Below, piece after piece: positions 1-24,417 of a stretch of 24,648 bases of DNA. The notes under the pieces were generated by a model. That model worked only from the letters and a program-made list of their open reading frames with translations, had not been told where the DNA came from and ran no database searches. The first letter of the stretch is position 1; each line of letters starts with the position of its first letter. A program made the translations under genes and the position numbers. Location: positions 1 to 24,648 of the IMG/VR virus record IMGVR_UViG_3300028298_000702, one strand, 5' to 3'. The stretch comes from a virus.

Positions 1-813
1 TCAGCCGGGCTTACCTTTTTGAATAGGATAATTGGCTGTCAATACCTCGATTTTATTTGATCTTACCGACTTCTTTGAAGCGCATAGAGGCATTTTAAAG
101 TCAAGCTGAGTCCAACCTTGCTTTCTTGCATATTTTGTTATGATGTCCTGAGGGTAATTGCTTAACAGAAACTTTCCTTGAATGTTTGATAGCCTGACCA
201 GGAGCTGTTCAAGGTTGTCCATTGTATAGCCTTTATAATGGCCGCAGTTGGTATTGGGATAAGGCGGGTCTATGTAATGAAAGGTATCTGGCGTATCATA
301 TAACCTGATCACATCAAGGGCGTCACGGCACTCTATTTGCGTTAATTCCAAACGCTCCTCCAGCAATTCTGTAAACTGCCTTTTTTTATTCATGACCTTT
401 CTTGCAATGCTGGATTTACTTTTATCGAATCCCCAGGATCCTGAAAGCTGACTGCCGAATGATTGAGTGGATAAGACCCATAAAGCCCATGCACGTGTTA
501 CCTGATCATGCTTCTCTGGCTGCTGATAAATCTCCCATGCCATCTTATGGGTCTTGCGGCTATGCAAGGTGATTTTAACAGCTTTTTGAAGGGCTTTAAA
601 CTTCGTTTTAAGAACCACGTAAAAGTTGATCAGCTCATCATTCATATCATTGATGACCTCAACCTTTGAAGGTGCCTTTAACCAGTAAATGGCGGCACCT
701 CCACAAAACGGTTCACAATAAACAGTGTGTTTGGGAATTAAAGGCAGAATATGCCTTGACATTTGCTGCTTGCCCCCATAATAGCTTATGGGGGTCTTAA
801 TCGTAGGTTCCAT
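1..813 (-). CDS. Dam-family (D12 class) DNA N6-adenine methyltransferase
   Basis: Predicted 270-aa enzyme that transfers a methyl group from S-adenosylmethionine to N6 of adenine in DNA. Seen: the N-terminal SAM-binding signature of the D12 class (YYGGKQQM, residues 11-18), a second SAM-pocket motif (EPFCGGAA, about 34-41) and the catalytic DPPY box (182-185) followed by YPNTN. The length is normal for Dam-like phage enzymes, so it looks complete; its stop codon is the first three bases of the window. It is the last visible gene of the leftward avd-RT unit, 53 bp after the preceding gene. The likely role (inference) is modification of phage DNA against host restriction or marking of phage DNA. 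The target sequence cannot be read from the protein. No partner endonuclease is next to it, so it is probably an orphan methylase. Confidence 0.9.
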   Translation of the reverse strand: MEPTIKTPISYYGGKQQMSRHILPLIPKHTVYCEPFCGGAAIYWLKAPSKVEVINDMNDELINFYVVLKTKFKALQKAVKITLHSRKTHKMAWEIYQQPEKHDQVTRAWALWVLSTQSFGSQLSGSWGFDKSKSSIARKVMNKKRQFTELLEERLELTQIECRDALDVIRLYDTPDTFHYIDPPYPNTNCGHYKGYTMDNLEQLLVRLSNIQGKFLLSNYPQDIITKYARKQGWTQLDFKMPLCASKKSVRSNKIEVLTANYPIQKGKPG

Positions 814-866: not shown

Positions 867-1277
867 CTATTGCTTCAGTCCGAGTGCAATTTTCTGAACC
901 GCTCCTGCCTGGCGGCACTCATCCACGATCTGCTGATACGCTATGTATTCCGCAGAAGTTTTGTCATCCTTCAGAATTGAAAACTCATCGCCGATTGAAT
1001 ACTTTTCACGAATCCTCTGCTCGACCTGGGCATTGATCTCCTTATAAAGACGACTCCCTTTGAGGATCTCCTCTATGTCAGCAAATGCCAGTTCTTCAAC
1101 CTCGCATTCATCATGTTGCTCAGGTAATACTGCATCATCTGAAATACCATGATATTCGTATCCGTCAATTCGAGCATAAAAATGATGCTGAATTTCTTCA
1201 TTGTTCATTTTGACAGGTGTAATGAATGCTAAGATTTCACCATCCTGATCGACAACTTTTGATTTAAAGTATTTCAT
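867..1277 (-). CDS. Uncharacterised 136-aa acidic protein downstream of the DGR reverse transcriptase
   Basis: I do not recognise a family. The protein is acidic, with a beta-rich start (MKYFKSKVVDQDGEI) and a more helical second half (about residues 65-130, EEILKGSRLYKEI and EQRIREKYSIGDEF). It has no signal peptide or membrane segment. Its ATG overlaps the stop of the reverse transcriptase gene by 4 nt (ATGA arrangement), so it is probably translationally coupled to it and expressed with the retroelement. It could be a DGR accessory factor or an unrelated phage protein carried in the same transcript; the sequence does not decide between these. The reading frame is intact. Confidence 0.7.
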   Translation of the reverse strand: MKYFKSKVVDQDGEILAFITPVKMNNEEIQHHFYARIDGYEYHGISDDAVLPEQHDECEVEELAFADIEEILKGSRLYKEINAQVEQRIREKYSIGDEFSILKDDKTSAEYIAYQQIVDECRQAGAVQKIALGLKQ

Positions 1278-2287
1278 TGCTTTTTCTTTTTATGTTTCTT
1301 GTACCACTTAACTATCCAGTCGCGACGCTCCGGAACAACCTGGAGAATCTGCTTGATTACGTAAACTAATGAATCTGTACGTTTGGCATGGCTTAAATAG
1401 CTTGCAATTCGATTCAGATTCGGATCTTGTTTTAGTTTGCGCTTGATTTTGAAAAGAGACCGCTTTCTAATCAACCGGCGATTGTACCAGGTGCGATATC
1501 CTACAAAGTCGATTCCCTGCCTGATTTGTGATACTTTCGTTTTAGCATTGATGTTCAGATTCAATTTATTAACCTCAATGATAATTCTCTTTTCCGCATC
1601 CTTCAGCTGCTCTTTTGACTTTGACAGCAAAATCATGTCATCCATATACCGGATGTAATGCCTGATCTTTAGTTCCCTTTTGATAAAATGATCAATCGGA
1701 TTCAAAGCCAGGTTTGCAGAAAGCTGAGAGGAAACATTGCCCAGGGGAAGCCCGACACCCTTATGATTTTTGTGAAACTTTTCAATGAGTTCAAGGGTGT
1801 ATTTGCATTTGATCACGTCCCGGTACTGAGTTTTCAAGACCAGGTGATCCACCGAATAAAAGAACTTTTCGATATCCACTTTAAGAAAATACCCTTCATT
1901 CTTGTAATTGACCAGTTTTGATATCAGCCGGTTACTGGCCGCATGGGTGCCTCGCTCTTTAATGCATGCAAAAGTCTGATCAATCAAGTGCGATTCAACC
2001 GTCATGCGGATTGCAATCAATAAGGCATGCTGAACAATTCGATCTTCTAAACAAGGAGCTTCGATTAACCTGGTCTTAGGATCATGAACATAAAACGTCC
2101 TGAGAGGTTGTGGTTCATAAGAGCCACTATCCATCTTTATGAGTAAATTCGAAAGATTGACAGCGAGGTTTTCTTCATAGGCCAGTATTGAATAGTAATA
2201 GCTTTTATGCTTTTTCACTTCATACCATGCCTCCAGAAGAACATCGTAATCGCACCACTTGGCTTTTAATCTTCCAGGTCTTCCCAT
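1274..2287 (-). CDS. DGR reverse transcriptase
   Basis: Predicted 337-aa RNA-dependent DNA polymerase that copies the template repeat (TR) RNA into mutagenised cDNA. Seen: RT motif A (FLKVDIEKFF, with the catalytic Asp at about 138), motif B with the DGR-type sequence LGNVSSQ (about 182-188; the LGxxxSQ form separates DGR enzymes from the QGxxxSP form of group II intron enzymes) and the catalytic YMDD box (214-217). The C-terminus is strongly basic (ends KKHKKKKQ) and there is no maturase or endonuclease domain. The length is within the usual range for DGR enzymes. It lies 154 bp after the TR and behind avd, the order seen in Bordetella phage BPP-1. No Shine-Dalgarno precedes the ATG, as is usual in Bacteroidota. 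All three catalytic aspartates are present, so the enzyme should be active. Confidence 0.97.
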   Translation of the reverse strand: MGRPGRLKAKWCDYDVLLEAWYEVKKHKSYYYSILAYEENLAVNLSNLLIKMDSGSYEPQPLRTFYVHDPKTRLIEAPCLEDRIVQHALLIAIRMTVESHLIDQTFACIKERGTHAASNRLISKLVNYKNEGYFLKVDIEKFFYSVDHLVLKTQYRDVIKCKYTLELIEKFHKNHKGVGLPLGNVSSQLSANLALNPIDHFIKRELKIRHYIRYMDDMILLSKSKEQLKDAEKRIIIEVNKLNLNINAKTKVSQIRQGIDFVGYRTWYNRRLIRKRSLFKIKRKLKQDPNLNRIASYLSHAKRTDSLVYVIKQILQVVPERRDWIVKWYKKHKKKKQ

Positions 2288-2568
2288 ATTGTATAAAAGC
2301 GAGGTGGCCAGACTTTCGGACTTCCTACTCGAATGACCACGCTCTTAGATTTCTGTCCCATGGACAAGGATGATGCTCCCTTTTAACTAATGCTCACTCC
2401 GGCGTCCCTTGAGATTCCGGCTCACAGCTGATGTTAAGAGTCCACCACGAAACGACACATTTCTGTTGGCGTTATTCCGATTGTTATTCCAATTGCGCGC
2501 GCCGACCCCGGCATTAGTATTGTTATTCCAATTGCCAAAACCGAGGGGCGCAACATCATACTCAAGCA
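2288..2568 (-). ncRNA. DGR template RNA region (TR plus 3' spacer)
   Basis: This 281-bp stretch between avd and the reverse transcriptase holds the template repeat (2442-2553) and a 154-nt spacer up to the RT start codon. In BPP-1 the RNA 3' of TR binds the Avd-RT complex and primes cDNA synthesis (established for that phage); the same job is inferred here from position and length. The spacer contains short self-complementary segments: TGTCC/GGACA with a 3-nt loop (near 2354-2366), and two GCCGG/CCGG-type segments around 2405-2423. Exact RNA ends cannot be read from the sequence. A short open frame runs through TR from a GTG overlapping the avd stop, but it is explained by TR being a copy of coding sequence. 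Confidence 0.75.
2442..2553 (-). repeat. DGR template repeat (TR)
   Basis: A 112-bp segment that aligns without gaps to 3026-3137 (VR), at a constant offset of 584 bp. On the coding strand it is dominated by AAT/AAC codons (asparagine), the signature of adenine-templated diversification. The 20 bp at its 5' end and the 17 bp at its 3' end (coding sense) are identical to VR and contain no adenine, so they stay constant under adenine mutagenesis. The 3' identical block is where the initiation-of-mutagenic-homing element and its TR counterpart would lie. About 29 adenines lie between the constant ends. Confidence 0.98.
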
Positions 2569-2910
2569 TCACCCTGTATTCTGAACTTTCATCCAGGCAC
2601 CGAGCATACGGCCAACTTCATCAACATTCAGCTGACTTACACGGTGTTTCTGTGCATCAATATACTTGAGTTCAAAAGCAAGATTTATCAACTGCCGAAG
2701 CGTTTCGTGCTTTACATCAAACTCTGAAAACGAAGTCTTTTTGATGTACCGCTTATTTGCCGCCACCGCAAGTTCCAGGATGTCATAACCAAGTTCCCGG
2801 ATCTTCGATGCCAAAACAAACTTTTCGAATTTCGGAAATTGCCGGAGCATGATGCTGTTGTAAATGATCATATCCCGGATCTTTTTTTCGATCAACAAGT
2901 ATTCTGACAT
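2569..2910 (-). CDS. avd: Avd-like DGR accessory variability determinant
   Basis: Predicted 113-aa helical protein that pairs with the DGR reverse transcriptase and TR RNA. Seen: almost entirely helix-forming sequence starting MSEYLLIEKKIRDMI, with positively charged segments (KFEKFVLASKIR, ANKRYIKK) and a closing GAWMKVQ, which fits the small four-helix-bundle Avd/bAvd family in length and style. It sits between the VR-bearing gene and TR, exactly the avd position in BPP-1. I chose the ATG at 2910 over the in-frame ATG at 2928. A near-consensus promoter ends at 2915, only 4 nt before ATG 2910, so the longer form would start inside the promoter. In Bordetella phage, Avd forms a pentamer and is required for retrohoming. 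Confidence 0.92.
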   Translation of the reverse strand: MSEYLLIEKKIRDMIIYNSIMLRQFPKFEKFVLASKIRELGYDILELAVAANKRYIKKTSFSEFDVKHETLRQLINLAFELKYIDAQKHRVSQLNVDEVGRMLGAWMKVQNTG

Positions 2911-2914
2911 GACG

Positions 2915-2945
2915 CAAAAATAGGGCATTTCCTTTTAAGCGCAAA
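2915..2945 (-). promoter_or_regulatory. Bacteroidota-type promoter for the avd-TR-RT unit
   Basis: On the minus strand TTTG (2942-2945), a 19-nt spacer and TATTTTTG (2915-2922) match the Bacteroidota primary-sigma consensus (TTTG/TTG, 19-20 nt, TAnnTTTG). The start of transcription would fall at or within a few bases of the avd ATG at 2910. This suggests the retroelement is transcribed separately from the tail genes, possibly also in a lysogen. Confidence 0.75.
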
Positions 2946-2980
2946 CTTTTTTCAAGATGTCAAAGAACGTTTTATCTGGG

Positions 2981-3004
2981 GGCCACTCACTACCGCTCGT
3001 GGCC
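2981..3004 (-). other. Inverted repeat just downstream of VR (candidate DGR hairpin or cruciform)
   Basis: GGCCAC (2981-2986) and GTGGCC (2999-3004) form a 6-bp perfect stem with a 12-nt loop. It begins 5 nt after the stop of the VR-bearing gene and 21 nt after the end of VR. DGRs commonly carry an inverted repeat just after VR that boosts retrohoming. This one has the right place but a larger loop than the BPP-1 example. No U-tract follows, so a terminator role is less likely. Confidence 0.5.
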
Positions 3005-3009
3005 GACAT

Positions 3010-5016
3010 TTATCCAATGAAAAGGCCACCACGAAACGACACAGACCTGTTGGCGTAAAGCCGAATGTTATCCCAAAGGCGCGCGCCGACCCCGGCACCA
3101 GCACTGCTATCCCAAGCGCCAAAACCGAGGGGCGCAAGTTGATTAACCATGTATATGTAGCAATAATCATAGCCCATCAGTGCCGTTCCAGAACCGTATG
3201 AATCCTTATTCATAGGTAACCCTGCTGCAGAAACTTTGTAGGCATTTAACGCACGATTGACCTCACCAGAGAATACTTGGTTTGCACCATTTCCGTATCG
3301 CACATCAAACCCGCCACAAAAATCAATATCAATCTCATCGTACATTGCAGCCACTCCTGTTGCGCCCCACAAATCAGTAGCTAATGAGGTGCCAGAGGTT
3401 ACATTCTTGAGATCAACGGATTCCTTAAGCATGTAAAACTTACCCGTTAAGCTGGTAAGTCCACTGGAATAATCTGCTGTCAACGCGGAGCTGTCAACAT
3501 AGGCCCCTGCCTTGTTTTTCAGCTTAAACGTATTGCCTGAAATATCGCTGATGGTAAAGAATTTATCCTTCAGAAGTGCTGCCCACTCACCGGTCAACGA
3601 TCCACCGATCATGACTGGCTTCCCATTTGCATAATTAGAATTCGCTGCAGCTGCGTCGGTAACCGTAACAACTGCCTGGGCTTCCCTTGTGATAGCGGCG
3701 ATTGCCTGAGCTGATTCAGTAATACATGTAACACCGGGGAGAAACTCCCACTGATTTGCATCCAGACATATTCCTGAATCCTGCCCGTTATGGGTAGTCT
3801 TATTGAACGGAGTGCCACCTCCATTCTTACGAGCTTCCATCGGGGCGTTTTTAGCTCCCCAGTAACCATCATCGCAGGCGGCATAAGTAACACCGTTGTC
3901 ATAATAGTCAACCCCGTAATAATTGTTTCCACGCGGCTCTGAAGGACTCACGCCGTTCCAGGCGCAATTAGCAGTACCAATAGCGGCCTGTTTGTGTACC
4001 TGTGACATGAATCTAAGCCACTCAGCGGCAAATAAACCCATCGCATGGTAAGAAGATCCACGGCTCTTGATCGCGTCAATCGCACCGGAATAGTTATCTG
4101 CAGGTGATTTGCTATTAGCCCTGCAATTAGAGAAACTACCAGCATACAGGTTGTCAGTACCGGGATTCAGCCGTTTGCTTTCAGCACTTGAGCTGATCGG
4201 GTTGCCGAGCTTGATCGAACTGGCCACACCCTTATTGGCAAGGGATCCTGAGCCATCGAGATCAGAGGCTGTAATGCCCGTTAATGACGGTTTGTATTTA
4301 TCCAGGAAGATACCCCTGTTAATCTTGCCTCCATTGATATATACCCTGGGCACTGAATAACCTGCAGTGTTTGCGGCAGCTTCATCAATGAAATAACCTT
4401 CCGGTTTGATATCTCCGGTATTATCAGCGTTTTTCTTTTGCCAGCCAAAAGGAACCCAGGTAATGATCGATCCATCATGAGAAACCTTATAATTGCCGTA
4501 ATTCGACGAGCTGATATCATAGGTCCCGTTGATCGGAAGGATCTCCTCACCAGGATGCAGAGCATTGTAGGCTCCAAGCAGCTCGGGCGGGCAAATGCCA
4601 ACCCCGAAACCCCGCTTGCCCGGCTCTCCAATGTGATTTACCAAGGTGCCGGTCTGAAGCATTACTTCGTTGCCGGTTGAATCCAGGACAAAGATGCGGC
4701 CCTCAGTATCGAGGCTGATCCGCCGTATGCCTGCACCAGGGGAACCGGGTTTTGCAGCCCGCTCAATGAAGTCCCTGTAGGCCGCTGATGCCTCAGCCCC
4801 GGTTGAATCGGAATTTACCCACTGGGCATTGGCCACATCCCATATCCAGAATGAATTTGTTGCTTTGATCATGGCGAAGTCGCCGGGATCTCCGACCGGT
4901 CGGAAGCCAGTCAGCTCGCTGGAGGTTTCAAACGGGAGGCCGTCCCTGGTGATATAATGAACAAAGTCGGCCAAAAGCGTGCCGAGGTTAACGATTTTAC
5001 TTGTGCCTGTTGACAT
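3010..5016 (-). CDS. DGR-diversified tail adhesin / receptor-binding protein
   Basis: Predicted 668-aa tail-tip protein whose C-terminus is rewritten by the retroelement. Seen: an N-terminal phage-attachment region (MSTGTSKIVNLGTLLADFV), a middle region rich in Gly, Ser, Asn and aromatics (about 130-445) and a C-terminal segment ending VSFRGGLFIG, typical of the C-type-lectin-like fold of DGR targets. A separate beta-type insert at about 447-519 (VVTVTD, GKPVMI, NTFKLKN) resembles the FCCH-type repeats found in other phage tail proteins. VR spans residues 627-664. Twelve residues there differ from the TR-encoded ones: 634, 636-640, 647, 649, 651, 653, 654 and 658. It is the last gene of the leftward tail operon, where receptor-binding proteins usually sit. 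The function in host recognition is inferred from this and from BPP-1 Mtd. Confidence 0.93.
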   Translation of the reverse strand: MSTGTSKIVNLGTLLADFVHYITRDGLPFETSSELTGFRPVGDPGDFAMIKATNSFWIWDVANAQWVNSDSTGAEASAAYRDFIERAAKPGSPGAGIRRISLDTEGRIFVLDSTGNEVMLQTGTLVNHIGEPGKRGFGVGICPPELLGAYNALHPGEEILPINGTYDISSSNYGNYKVSHDGSIITWVPFGWQKKNADNTGDIKPEGYFIDEAAANTAGYSVPRVYINGGKINRGIFLDKYKPSLTGITASDLDGSGSLANKGVASSIKLGNPISSSAESKRLNPGTDNLYAGSFSNCRANSKSPADNYSGAIDAIKSRGSSYHAMGLFAAEWLRFMSQVHKQAAIGTANCAWNGVSPSEPRGNNYYGVDYYDNGVTYAACDDGYWGAKNAPMEARKNGGGTPFNKTTHNGQDSGICLDANQWEFLPGVTCITESAQAIAAITREAQAVVTVTDAAAANSNYANGKPVMIGGSLTGEWAALLKDKFFTISDISGNTFKLKNKAGAYVDSSALTADYSSGLTSLTGKFYMLKESVDLKNVTSGTSLATDLWGATGVAAMYDEIDIDFCGGFDVRYGNGANQVFSGEVNRALNAYKVSAAGLPMNKDSYGSGTALMGYDYCYIYMVNQLAPLGFGAWDSSAGAGVGARLWDNIRLYANRSVSFRGGLFIG
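3026..3137 (-). repeat. DGR variable repeat (VR)
   Basis: A 112-bp partner of TR at the 3' end of the adhesin gene. It differs from TR at 18 positions, and every one is an adenine in TR on the coding strand (A to G, C or T). No other base is changed. One change is silent (AGA to AGG, Arg657). VR ends 13 bp before the stop codon (TAA, 3010-3012). Confidence 0.98.
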
Positions 5017-6681: not shown

Positions 6682-7568
6682 TCAATACTCACGATTACAT
6701 TGTCAACAAATTGGTACGAGCTATCGGTTGCAATGATGAAGTACCCTGAAACACTTTCAACCTTCATGTCAACCAGGGTGTAAGTACCACCGGCAGGCTT
6801 GTGGTAGGCTGAGTTTAATTTAACGTCAATCACGCCTTCAGCCCCTTGTATTGCATCAACCAGTTTCGAGAGCATGATCACACCGTCAAATTCTAATCCC
6901 CCGGCATATGCGGCGATAGCATCGGCAATAGGGAAAACAGATGCATCCCTGAGCAGGGAATTATTCCCATTCAACACCAGCCGGTCGCGAACTATCGTAA
7001 TGGATATTTTCAGAATGTCAGCCGAGAGCGAAACGATTTCCAGAGGCACACCGGCGTCTTTCCATTTGCGCCAAAACTCTGTAAACGTTGCCTTTTCTGT
7101 TACATCGAGCGCAGCCTTCACACCGCTCACCAATTTGGCAACCTTAAGGATCACCTTGCCGTTTTTCTCACTCGCAGCGGCATATTTTACAATCTTCGCG
7201 TTTTCATCAATGCGGTCGTACACGTACTGATTGTCTTTCCAGATCAGCGCGTACCCGTACTGAAACTTCTTTGACTCCTCAGCGTACCAGCGTTCATGAT
7301 GCGGGTTCTTAGCAGCTAAAATGCCTGTGATCTCTGCCTTATGATTATCAAACAGCGTCTCAACGATCCACGATCCAACCGCAAACAGCCAGATAAACAA
7401 CCTCCATACTGCGACTTTACTTGCTGAAGTAATATCGGCAAGCAGCGTTTCCCAGGTATCCTGAACGCTGTACGAGTTATTAGCATCAACCACATAATCA
7501 TGCAGCTCCTGAAACGTTGATTTTACAACGTTAAGACGGTCATATATTTCACTGATCTTGCGAGCCAC
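6678..7568 (-). CDS. Putative baseplate J-like protein
   Basis: A 296-aa protein. The N-terminal third is helical with a hydrophobic helix (VAVWRLFIWLFAVGSWIVETLF, about 52-73). The middle contains strand-turn segments (KVILKVAKLVSG, LKISITIVRDRLVLNG), and the C-terminus has the pattern SVSGYFIIATDSSYQF. This layout and its place between the LysM-like/gp25-like genes and the gpI-like gene fit the J-type wedge protein that builds the ring of contractile baseplates. The hydrophobic helix probably packs against neighbouring wedge subunits rather than crossing a membrane (inference). Confidence 0.65.
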   Translation of the reverse strand: MARKISEIYDRLNVVKSTFQELHDYVVDANNSYSVQDTWETLLADITSASKVAVWRLFIWLFAVGSWIVETLFDNHKAEITGILAAKNPHHERWYAEESKKFQYGYALIWKDNQYVYDRIDENAKIVKYAAASEKNGKVILKVAKLVSGVKAALDVTEKATFTEFWRKWKDAGVPLEIVSLSADILKISITIVRDRLVLNGNNSLLRDASVFPIADAIAAYAGGLEFDGVIMLSKLVDAIQGAEGVIDVKLNSAYHKPAGGTYTLVDMKVESVSGYFIIATDSSYQFVDNVIVSIE

Positions 7569-7570
7569 GG

Positions 7571-8143
7571 TTATACCCTCCAGATTAAGTCGTCGATGGT
7601 TCCGGTTGCTCCACTCACATCAACCCTGATCCTGGTGAAGTCAGTAACCAAACCGGCAATATTGAACGTATGCGAAGGTTTGGTTGCATCCAGCTGAAAG
7701 GTTGCACCGGTAATCGCAGAAAAGGATATTCCGTCCAGGGACTGTTCTACATATACCCCAACGTTTCCGGTGAGTGAACTGTAATTGATCTGCACGCTCA
7801 GCTCGTCGCCCAGGTTGGCCAGGCGAACGCCGTCAAAGGATGTATCTCCATCGGCCAGGTCGTAAGCAACGATTTGTTTTATCTGTATCATGTCATCCTG
7901 TGTTATGGAAATCTCTTCACCAAGTCCTGAGACAGGCTTGATATTGTTCCTGGTATAATAATCCAGTACTGAGGCATTGATTACTTTATCCGGGACCAGT
8001 ACCTTCGTCCCTGGTGCAATGGCCATATCGAGTCTTAAAAAGGCGTTGGAAGCAATGATATCAAACACGCCCTCGATGCTACCCATTTCCTGCATGGCAA
8101 TGTCAAATACCGATTGTCCCGATACCGCAATTACTGTTTTCAT
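7571..8143 (-). CDS. Baseplate-associated protein with LysM-like N-terminus and beta-sandwich C-terminus
   Basis: A 190-aa protein. Residues 1-55 look like a LysM-type fold: an initial strand and helix (VIAVSGQSVFDIAMQEMGS), then NAFLRLDMAIAPGTKVLVPD, where PGTKVLVPD matches the usual closing strand of LysM. In phage baseplates such domains often connect hub and wedge rather than bind peptidoglycan. Residues from about 110 on form a beta-rich domain related to the 108-aa protein at 5035-5361. The gene is packed between the gp25-like and J-like genes, overlapping the former by 4 nt. Confidence 0.7.
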   Translation of the reverse strand: MKTVIAVSGQSVFDIAMQEMGSIEGVFDIIASNAFLRLDMAIAPGTKVLVPDKVINASVLDYYTRNNIKPVSGLGEEISITQDDMIQIKQIVAYDLADGDTSFDGVRLANLGDELSVQINYSSLTGNVGVYVEQSLDGISFSAITGATFQLDATKPSHTFNIAGLVTDFTRIRVDVSGATGTIDDLIWRV

Positions 8144-8448
8144 GCTATATATTCTCCTTTCACTGTAATTGTACCATCTGCCAAAAACGTGATGCTTGCT
8201 TTACGCATCCCATCAGCTTCAACCTGAAGCATGATCTCGCGGCGCAGATTATCCTTTTCTTTTTGCGAAAGCGGACCGTGGAAATAATCAATGATGTCGA
8301 TGCCGGTTAAAGGATGCTGCTTGTACTGTCCTTTGCTTGACAGCATCAGATCTTCCACGTGCTGCTCGTCAGAGAAGCCTATGACAAAATCACCAGCTAT
8401 GCTAACCACATCTCCTTCTTCTCCGATCAATATATCTCTCACCATCAT
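8140..8448 (-). CDS. Putative gp25/gpW-like baseplate wedge protein
   Basis: A 102-aa protein (MMVRDILIGEEGDVVSIAGDFVIGFSDEQHVEDLML). Its size, its position before the J-like gene and the pattern of N-terminal strands, then helix (SQKEKDNLRREIMLQVEAD), then C-terminal strands (ASITFLADGTITVKGEY) fit the small gp25/gpW wedge family. The sequence is too diverged for a certain call by eye. An alternative start is the second Met, one codon in. The stop overlaps the next start by 4 nt (ATGA), which suggests translational coupling. Confidence 0.6.
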   Translation of the reverse strand: MMVRDILIGEEGDVVSIAGDFVIGFSDEQHVEDLMLSSKGQYKQHPLTGIDIIDYFHGPLSQKEKDNLRREIMLQVEADGMRKASITFLADGTITVKGEYIA

Positions 8449-8449
8449 G

Positions 8450-8656
8450 TTAAGTCATTGATCCGATCGCGGCTACCGCTCCGGTTGGACATGTTCCTGT
8501 TGAATTTACCACTCCTGCTTTTACGTAAGTATCTATCGCTAATGCTATCGCATCAGCAAGGGCACCGATAGCCTGCTCAGGCTGCGACTCTTTCTTTCTT
8601 GCTTCCAAAAAGGCCGCCTCAATGGCTTGTTTTAATGTAGGTTGATTCAATGGCAT
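8450..8656 (-). CDS. Small Ala-rich hypothetical protein of the baseplate cluster
   Basis: A 68-aa protein, not recognised. Residues 5-48 are likely one or two amphipathic helices (LKQAIEAAFLEARKKE, AIGALADAIALAIDTYVKAG), followed by a short Gly/Ala/Thr-rich tail (TGTCPTGAVAAIGSMT). It abuts the spike-like gene with no gap and is 1 nt before the gp25-like gene, so it is clearly part of the tail operon. The tail resembles the C-terminal segment of the neighbouring spike-like protein in style (TGTGPSGTPI). A tip or chaperone role would be a guess. Confidence 0.6.
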   Translation of the reverse strand: MPLNQPTLKQAIEAAFLEARKKESQPEQAIGALADAIALAIDTYVKAGVVNSTGTCPTGAVAAIGSMT

Positions 8657-9148
8657 TTAAGAAGTTTTTAAAAGCTGACTAAATTTCTGTTTTACTGCTT
8701 CAAAGCTGGGGGCATTAATGGGAGTCCCCGAAGGGCCGGTACCGGTTGTTACCGTAATCTGCGTAATGGCATCAATCAATTCACCAATCAATCCCCCGAG
8801 ATTATTACTTGAGCGCTTCATCAGAAACCCTTCCTTATCAATTCTCATTTCGCTCTGTGGAATTTTCACGTACACCTCGTCAATTTCACTGTAACCACAG
8901 ATGAACGAACTCTCAGGTTTATTGTCGATCAATGCTACCAGCACGTAACTGTCTTTTTTAGGGATCAGCATCATGCCCGTATCCTTGCTATCCATTACGG
9001 AGCGGATTCTTGCCTGCGGACGATCTGCACCGGCTTCGATCACCAGGTCACAACTAAAAGCCTTTTTGTCCACACTCTGGACTTTGCCCACCACCACCTG
9101 AACCGGGGTCTGCCGCTTGATCTGATCGAACACGTCCTTGATGGTCAT
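8657..9148 (-). CDS. Baseplate spike / gpV-like protein with OB-fold N-terminus
   Basis: A 163-aa protein. Residues 12-90 carry the strand pattern of the OB-fold in phage spike proteins (VQVVVGKVQSVDKKAFSCDLVIEA, ARIRSVMD, MMLIPKKDSYVLVALID, SSFICGYSEID). A short C-terminal part (about 105-163) contains a repetitive TTGTGPSGTP stretch and a final helix (FEAVKQKFSQLLKTS). It would cap the hub and act as the central spike in membrane puncture. It overlaps the hub gene by 4 nt, the normal D-V type pairing. Confidence 0.75.
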   Translation of the reverse strand: MTIKDVFDQIKRQTPVQVVVGKVQSVDKKAFSCDLVIEAGADRPQARIRSVMDSKDTGMMLIPKKDSYVLVALIDNKPESSFICGYSEIDEVYVKIPQSEMRIDKEGFLMKRSSNNLGGLIGELIDAITQITVTTGTGPSGTPINAPSFEAVKQKFSQLLKTS

Positions 9149-16623: not shown

Positions 16624-16695
16624 TTGCGGCGGTGGGATTTGAACCCACGACCTGAGGGGTATGAACCCTCCGAGCTACCTCTGCTCTACGCCGCG
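16624..16695 (-). tRNA. tRNA-Met (CAU), initiator type
   Basis: A complete 72-nt cloverleaf on the minus strand. Acceptor stem GCGGCG/CGCCGC (positions 2-7/66-71), D-stem GAGC/GCTC, anticodon stem GAGGG/CCCTC around loop TTCATAC (anticodon CAU), T-arm GTGGG-TTCAAAT-CCCAC. It has the three initiator hallmarks: a C1 x A72 mismatch at the acceptor end, three consecutive G-C pairs (29-31/39-41) next to the anticodon loop, and A11-U24 in the D-stem. The 3' CCA is not encoded. It lies between two phage genes, so it is carried by the phage and read leftward with the late genes. Confidence 0.95.
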
Positions 16696-23055: not shown

Positions 23056-24417
23056 ATGTACTACTGCTCAGGGGATTTCTCAACCGAGCATATCACCTTA
23101 GCTGATAACCCTTCGCTGAAGAACCTCTACGATGACCTGGTCATCCAAACCCGGTCTCTGATCAAAAAGATCCATGACAAGAAGATCAAACAGGGAGATA
23201 TCGATAAGGCGACCACCGGTCTTACCCATCAGATCCTTATGGACGGGGTGGTTAAGGGTCTGAAGATCGACCTGAGCAAAGTCGATTACTCAAGCAATGA
23301 CGGTAAAAAGCTCAAAGCCCTGCAAACCCATGTATTCAGGTTCTCGGCTTGTAAAAACTACCTTGAAGTATCAGCTCTCAGTAGTGCCCTCATGGATCCC
23401 AAAGGAAATCCGCGCACATTTGAGGAGTTTAAAACGGTAGCCGGTAAGATCGATGCTACCTTCAATGGCCCCTGGCTCAGAACCGAATACGCCCAGGCCC
23501 AGGTAACCGCAACCCGTATTGCCGATTATAAGCGCATGGACGACCTGCGTGACATCTATCCGACCTGGCAATATAAAACACGCTCCGATGGCCATGTGAG
23601 AGAAGCTCACGCTGCCCTGCACAACATGAAACTTGCCGCAAGCGACCCCGCGTGGGCTTTGATCTATCCTCCCAACGGATGGAACTGCCGCTGCTTTGTA
23701 CAACCCCTCAGCGATGATCCACCTCACATGGGCAAAGGCCAGCAAGCCATCACAGAGCTACAGAAAACCATTGTCAACAAGAAAACCGGCCTGAGTGAAT
23801 GGGATAACATGGTCAAGCAGGGATTTAACCAGAATCCAGCAATGACAAACTCACTTTATCCTAAAAATCATCCGTATTGGAGGGCCAAAGATTCTGCATC
23901 GGTCTTGAAATCAGTCCAGGAGTTTCAACACCGACTTGACCAGGCAGAAGAACGTTCTGCGTTATATAAAAAGCTTAAAAAGAACAATGATTACCTGGAT
24001 GTTGATTTCAATCCTGCGAATGGTGGATTAAAAGCTACGCATGTTGAGCATCTTTTTGATAAACGCACAGGTGCTAATGAAAAACATGCACAAGAATTAC
24101 TATTTCAAGAAGGACATTTGGTCATTCTTGAAAGCGAAAAGCAAAAAATCCGCTATAAGAAAATACCTGAAGGTTTATTGGATGATCAGGTTATGGAGAT
24201 CAGTTCTATTTGTGGTAGCGGAAAAAATACTGTAAAAAAAGCATTACAACATGCCGCAGGTAAAGGAGCCGATACATGTGTTCTATATTTTACGCCTCAG
24301 TCTAATTTTACAAAGGAGCGATTAATTGAAGGGTGTAAGAGTTTTGATAATATAACTCCTTATAGATTTAAACGCATTATTTACATCGTTAAAGATAACC
24401 TTAATGAGATAAAATAA
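23056..24417 (+). CDS. MuF head protein with C-terminal nuclease-toxin-like domain
   Basis: Predicted 453-aa minor head protein from the first ATG. Seen: a MuF domain (about 10-270) with WQYKTRSDGHVREAHAALHN and WNCRCFVQPL (about 208-217), the family signature, followed by a helical linker (about 275-305) and a C-terminal toxin-like domain (about 305-453) with THVEHLFDKRTG, IPEGLLDDQVMEISSICGSGKNTVKKAL and ADTCVLYFTPQ, which resembles the tRNase domains (barnase-EndoU-RelE superfamily) of CdiA-type toxins. The frame is also open 69 nt upstream of the ATG to the slippery site, so it may be made as a portal fusion. The toxin part is AT-richer than the rest. Confidence 0.85.
   Translation: MYYCSGDFSTEHITLADNPSLKNLYDDLVIQTRSLIKKIHDKKIKQGDIDKATTGLTHQILMDGVVKGLKIDLSKVDYSSNDGKKLKALQTHVFRFSACKNYLEVSALSSALMDPKGNPRTFEEFKTVAGKIDATFNGPWLRTEYAQAQVTATRIADYKRMDDLRDIYPTWQYKTRSDGHVREAHAALHNMKLAASDPAWALIYPPNGWNCRCFVQPLSDDPPHMGKGQQAITELQKTIVNKKTGLSEWDNMVKQGFNQNPAMTNSLYPKNHPYWRAKDSASVLKSVQEFQHRLDQAEERSALYKKLKKNNDYLDVDFNPANGGLKATHVEHLFDKRTGANEKHAQELLFQEGHLVILESEKQKIRYKKIPEGLLDDQVMEISSICGSGKNTVKKALQHAAGKGADTCVLYFTPQSNFTKERLIEGCKSFDNITPYRFKRIIYIVKDNLNEIK

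Follow-up and report, generated by a model that had tools for sequence, protein, structure and literature searches.

The closest described counterpart of the locus analyzed here is the diversity-generating retroelement (DGR) of Bordetella phage BPP-1, in which the target gene mtd with its variable repeat (VR) is followed by avd (accessory variability determinant), the template repeat (TR) and the reverse transcriptase (RT) gene brt, an order that was verified against the annotated BPP-1 record. A hairpin 3' of the VR is required for efficient homing in BPP-1, and it is the structure of the stem that counts and not its sequence; the consensus for phage DGRs is a GRNA loop on a stem of 7-10 bp (PMC3240598). 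The BPP-1 spacer folds, recruits RT and Avd and bears the priming adenine (PMC12875486). A second point of reference is the hankyphage, a Mu-like Bacteroides phage with a DGR, in which the C-terminus of a large open reading frame (ORF) bears the VR of an adenine-restricted 117-bp repeat pair (PMC6199706). The stretch of DNA considered in the following (the window) is the whole of a single virus record of IMG/VR, IMGVR_UViG_3300028298_000702, with 24,648 bases. It almost certainly carries a complete BPP-1-type DGR in a phage whose head module is of the Mu type, because an adenine-restricted TR/VR pair, a DGR-type RT, Avd and the BPP-1 gene order are found together.

The element sits where the tail block ends, on the minus strand, and reads, in order of transcription, adhesin, avd, TR, spacer, RT, the small gene ORF136 and a Dam-type methylase. 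The original prediction, made from the letters of the sequence, of a complete DGR in BPP-1 order is thus borne out, and adhesin with VR, avd, TR and RT could all be located on this strand. The span assigned to the element at that time, 2442-5016, takes in the adhesin, avd, TR and VR and leaves the RT gene (1274-2287) outside, though the accompanying text describes it. Three parts had been overlooked, namely a homing hairpin, a structured RNA in the spacer and the gene ORF136.

Template and variable repeats

The target gene encodes a protein of 668 amino acids (3010-5016, minus strand). Its earlier designation as a tail gene agrees with its place as the final gene of the tail block. The VR (115 nucleotides, 3023-3137, minus strand) occupies the C-terminus of this adhesin, spans codons up to approximately 664 of 668 and stops a few bases short of the stop codon. 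The TR (2439-2553, minus strand) lies outside the adhesin gene, between avd and RT, and no further copy of the VR is present in the 24.6-kb record. Over the best-scoring 115 gap-free nucleotides all 19 differences between TR and VR fall on TR adenines (hypergeometric P = 2.3e-14). Of 30 adenines in the TR, 19 differ in the VR, nine being changed to G, five to C and five to T, while the other bases are identical. The gap-free repeat pair of 112 bp proposed originally shows the same restriction, with 18 of 18 differences at TR adenines over those 112 nucleotides, and in seven closely related loci such sites account for 120 of 128 differences.

When the TR is read in the frame of the adhesin, 16 codons bear a TR adenine and 13 of them are AAC or AAT (AAY), codons from which mutation at the adenines cannot produce a stop. 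Fifteen residues are able to change and 13 differ at present, in line with the predicted twelve or more, and the number of possible proteins is about 10^16.6. A run of TR/VR identity at 3023-3043 (minus strand) contains no TR adenines and gives way to A/C and C/T differences where the homology ends. This direct reading of the TR/VR alignment marks the probable initiation of mutagenic homing (IMH) segment, a function attributed by analogy with BPP-1 (PMC3240598).

Relatives with a matching layout were found by scans of viral contigs. Five close relatives provide 21 aligned sites that are adenine-free in every TR and at which the TRs differ, and comparisons were counted over ordered pairs at sites adenine-free in both TRs. 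In 245 comparisons the VR has the base of its own TR, in two that of the other TR and in one that of neither. Each VR tracks its own TR, which means that TR-to-VR copying was repeated along these branches, an outcome that an old, unrenewed duplication would not give, and which implies repeated retrohoming in the lineage. A chance repeat or a simple duplication is excluded by this tracking and by the restriction to adenines. Among the other loci, three (L102, L103 and L109) have a detected repeat pair in which some 2 kb separate the VR from a TR upstream of it, which places the target across the RT, on its other side. One locus (L087) has adhesin-like ORFs on both sides of the DGR (2174-4283 and 6730-8884), possibly including a second target gene.

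Reverse transcriptase and Avd

The RT (337 amino acids, 1274-2287, minus strand) matches Pfam RVT_1 (9.5e-21) and contains both motifs named in the original prediction, LGNVSSQ and YMDD. Its best relative in the PDB is 8ub7 (2.7e-46), an entry labelled only 'Reverse transcriptase' that we take to be the structure of the BPP-1 RT-Avd-RNA complex; the next is a group II maturase (6.6e-15). In a tree of 24 sequences that took in DGR RTs and four group II RTs, retron RTs not being included, the four group II RTs are split off by a 100/100 branch and the window RT stands beside BPP-1 brt and the other DGR RTs. The underlying alignment shows [ILV]GxxxSQ in all DGR rows and QGGxxSP instead in the group II rows. 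Other classes of RT were ruled out by the tree and the PDB search. The avd gene (2569-2928, minus strand; the start conserved in relatives corresponds to 2910) was identified by matches to NCBIfam NF033474 (4.6e-26, above the cut-off), Pfam bAvd (1.6e-25) and the Avd family PHROG 3206.

A spacer RNA related to Rfam RT-14

Between TR and RT lies a spacer of about 154 nucleotides (2288-2442, minus strand). The Rfam family RT-14 (RF02921) matches 2301-2440 over its full length (model positions 1-144) with 35.9 bits, the gathering score being 48.1, and with an E-value of 0.0025 on 501 bases or 0.12 on the whole window. The match begins at the end of the TR and finishes before the RT. As its score is under the gathering cut-off, the spacer is labelled RT-14-like rather than a member of the family, and as the match is weak when taken alone, three further tests were undertaken.

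RT-14 matches at the corresponding site in the records of four relatives, more weakly directly ahead of the DGR RT in a Helicobacter prophage, and also in a Clostridia genome, next to a DGR-type RT. In an alignment of 13 phage spacers, 26 of the 36 helix pairs show compensated changes, 93.7% of the pairing cells can pair (72.4% in shuffles) and 107 cells are changed on both sides, where shuffles give 35 and slid versions no more than 29. A search of 398 Bacillota genomes with RT-14 yielded ten genomes above the cut-off. Twelve loci from 11 genomes were read, among them one slightly under the cut-off and two that share a contig. In every one of the 12, avd lies upstream of the RNA and a DGR-type RT downstream, and a detectable adenine-biased TR/VR pair accompanies nine of them. 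Conversely, a model built from only the 13 phage spacers recovers spacers at corresponding positions in several of these Bacillota loci and in many further DGRs. From these sequence comparisons it is concluded that RT-14 represents the template-RNA spacer in a large branch of DGRs. In analogy to BPP-1, the spacer is presumed to be the part of the template RNA that binds RT and Avd and primes cDNA synthesis. One Bacillota genome has two RT-14 copies 593 bases apart on the same contig, between avd and a DGR-type RT (L131 and L136), which may correspond to two template RNAs.

A homing hairpin after the VR

Eighteen bases past the VR begins the hairpin GGCCACGAGC-GGTA-GTGAGTGGCC (2981-3004, minus strand), which could form a cruciform and consists of a 6-bp stem, a tandem G-A step, two pairs and the GRNA-type loop GGTA. 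The same scan recovered the BPP-1 hairpin, GCGGGGCC-GAAA-GGCCCCGC, as a positive control. GRNA hairpins scoring at least 15 occur in 32 of the 68 loci with a TR/VR pair, where shuffles lead one to expect 0.12, and the window hairpin on its own has a shuffle P of about 5e-5. Compensated stem variants distinguish the relatives (GGCCAC/GTGGCC, GCCGC/GCGGC and GGGGAT/ATCCCC), and the pair adjoining the C-G closing pair varies between G-T, T-A and G-C. A DNA fold reproduces the pairs of the hairpin with a weak energy that is modestly better than that of shuffles (z -1.7). The GRNA-loop hairpin of phage DGRs is thus present in a variant stem form: in the window's branch a tandem G-A step, separated from the loop by two pairs, breaks the stem, and 21 of the 68 loci show this pattern in their best hairpin. 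A reading of the structure as a transcription terminator was set aside because the run of T residues is missing after it.

Taken together with what is known of BPP-1, these parts suggest the following course of events. The avd-TR-spacer transcript would fold, its RT-14-like 3' spacer would recruit RT and Avd and prime the copying of the TR, and the RT would misread template adenines. The mutated cDNA would take the place of the VR in the 3' end of the adhesin gene, and the IMH together with the hairpin shortly past it would direct this homing. Approximately 15 C-terminal residues of the adhesin would be randomised, most likely altering the binding of the phage and conceivably its choice of receptor and the host range, as the original prediction had it.

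The adhesin and alternative explanations

Adhesin relatives in the same place share 85, 66 and 74% identity with the window protein. Residues 133-351 match phrog_20912, a middle part is similar to Campylobacter phage proteins, and the DGR of a Helicobacter prophage has a longer relative beside it. A comparison by hhalign set the VR region in register with a DGR target of the FGE-sulfatase type from a Photobacterium plasmid (42% probability) and gave nothing significant against Mtd. The FGE-sulfatase-type register hints at a C-type-lectin fold of the VR region.

Several observations weigh against the interpretation as a working DGR that diversifies a tail adhesin. The adhesin, VR region included, is without a Pfam or PDB match, profile searches gave nothing usable, and an AlphaFold model computed with eight relatives failed, with a predicted local distance difference test (pLDDT) value of 31. 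The RT-14 match falls below the Rfam gathering score, and the hairpin stem has 6 bp and an interrupted step, compared to the continuous 7-10 bp published for phage DGRs (PMC3240598). Present-day diversification was not seen in this single assembled sequence, and the tracking of TR by VR attests past transfer rather than activity today. This last point leaves room for a recent inactivation, in which all parts are intact but rewriting of the VR has ceased in this lineage: one assembled sequence cannot reveal activity, and the adhesin is represented by a single VR state. Such a loss is nevertheless improbable, given that RT and avd have their full length and undamaged motifs, that spacer RNA and hairpin retain their pairs and that not one non-adenine difference separates TR and VR over 115 nucleotides, where decay would add some.

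A more radical view would explain the repeats by an old duplication of part of the 3' end of the adhesin gene, next to an unrelated RT of a retron, a group II intron or a defence system. It could draw on the fact that repeats near RT genes may be due to chance and that the best NCBIfam family for the RT is a group II maturase, far under the cut-off. It is refuted by the limitation of the differences to adenines at the above P of 2.3e-14, by each VR tracking its own TR between species and by the grouping of the RT with BPP-1 and other DGR RTs across the 100/100 split from group II RTs, to which Avd adds a match above the cut-off, and its probability is close to nil. Easier to entertain, and still unlikely, is that the DGR works but that the diversified protein serves a purpose other than the choice of a host receptor, such as attachment to mucus, glycans or particles. 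An adhesin that matches no family would accommodate such a role, but as the last gene of the tail block it occupies the usual position of a receptor-binding protein. The interpretation as a DGR of a tail adhesin, presumably still active, is preferred.

A small gene downstream of the reverse transcriptase

ORF136 (867-1277, minus strand) overlaps the stop codon of the RT gene and is kept 3' of the RT in relatives. Of 86 RT-bearing loci, 79 extend far enough past the RT to hold such a gene, and in 28 of the 86 one of roughly 140 codons overlaps the RT stop codon or directly adjoins it; a search with ORF136 on its own returned only DGR loci (5/5). No family match was found in Pfam, NCBIfam or PHROG, and none in annotated phages. 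AlphaFold predicts the protein with a pLDDT of 91.5 as N-terminal strands and C-terminal helices, a fold for which searches of PDB and BFVD gave no significant structural hit. As a conserved small gene after the RT, ORF136 is a candidate accessory factor of the DGR or may act as a chaperone of the adhesin. A far-reaching and rather doubtful extension would make it a further dedicated DGR gene, co-translated with the RT, that aids mutagenic homing or the folding of an ever-changing adhesin and, with the G-A step in the hairpin and the RT-14-like spacer, marks a distinct mechanistic branch of phage DGRs. The Dam-type adenine methylase gene (1-813, minus strand) adjoins the DGR. A similar ORF comes after the DGR in two relatives (L003 and L013).

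The phage and its host

The head module of the phage is of the Mu type, with matches to Portal_Mu (8.2e-73), the I protease family Mu-like_Pro (2.5e-7) and Phage_Mu_F (4.3e-12); a DUF2586 protein is also encoded. No transposase was identified in the 24.6-kb record, for which reason the term Mu-type refers to the head module only and not to transposition. Most of the portal's relatives belong to Bacteroidota phages. No close cellular relative was found in genome contigs, where the best RT identity is 33%, barring a short stretch of 49%. The host is probably a member of the Bacteroidota, an assignment drawn from the portal relatives.

The MuF head protein is encoded at 23056-24417 (plus strand). 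Its homologues in the two nearest phages align over the first approximately 290 residues only, its C-terminal third is not conserved in them and its end has a sub-threshold match to CdiA_C. This pattern fits a polymorphic-toxin tail. A tRNA gene (16624-16695, minus strand; Rfam, 64 bits) lies mid-record.

Comparison with known systems

As an element, the window DGR is one more entry in a large catalogue, and the useful gain lies in its mechanistic annotation. Among the three added parts, hairpin, spacer RNA and ORF136, the RT-14 assignment is the most useful. Rfam names the family only 'RT-14 RNA' and assigns it no function; its location between avd-TR and RT was established in the present analysis, and this public RNA family can now be placed as a DGR spacer, without a claim to priority in the literature. 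The spacer structure has covariation support and is directly testable. The homing hairpin of phage DGRs gains a variant form.

The original prediction had further considered the coupling of the DGR to a MuF-toxin phage as perhaps undescribed. This claim could not be upheld: the putative MuF toxin and the DGR are linked by the shared genome alone, and a Mu-like Bacteroides phage with a DGR is already known in the hankyphage (PMC6199706), so that the combination of a Mu-type Bacteroides phage and a DGR is not new. The hankyphage target is far larger, with its VR at residues 2188-2225, and is likened to the window by its published description (PMC6199706). The nearest relatives are two unannotated metagenomic records, IMGVR_UViG_3300028283_000029 and IMGVR_UViG_3300029268_000104, with 85 and 66% identity in the adhesin and 94 and 87% in avd. 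They share the DGR layout and the Mu-type portal, whereas VR states and MuF C-termini differ from those of the window.

With BPP-1 (mtd-avd-TR-brt) the window has in common the gene order and spacing, adenine-only differences between TR and VR, the VR at the end of a tail protein, the GRNA-loop hairpin past the VR and a structured spacer between TR and RT. In contrast, the RTs are only about 35% identical, the target is not detectably related to Mtd, the BPP-1 spacer belongs to Rfam Phage_DGR (RF03022, 104.7 bits) rather than RT-14, and the stem of the window's hairpin is interrupted by the tandem G-A step.

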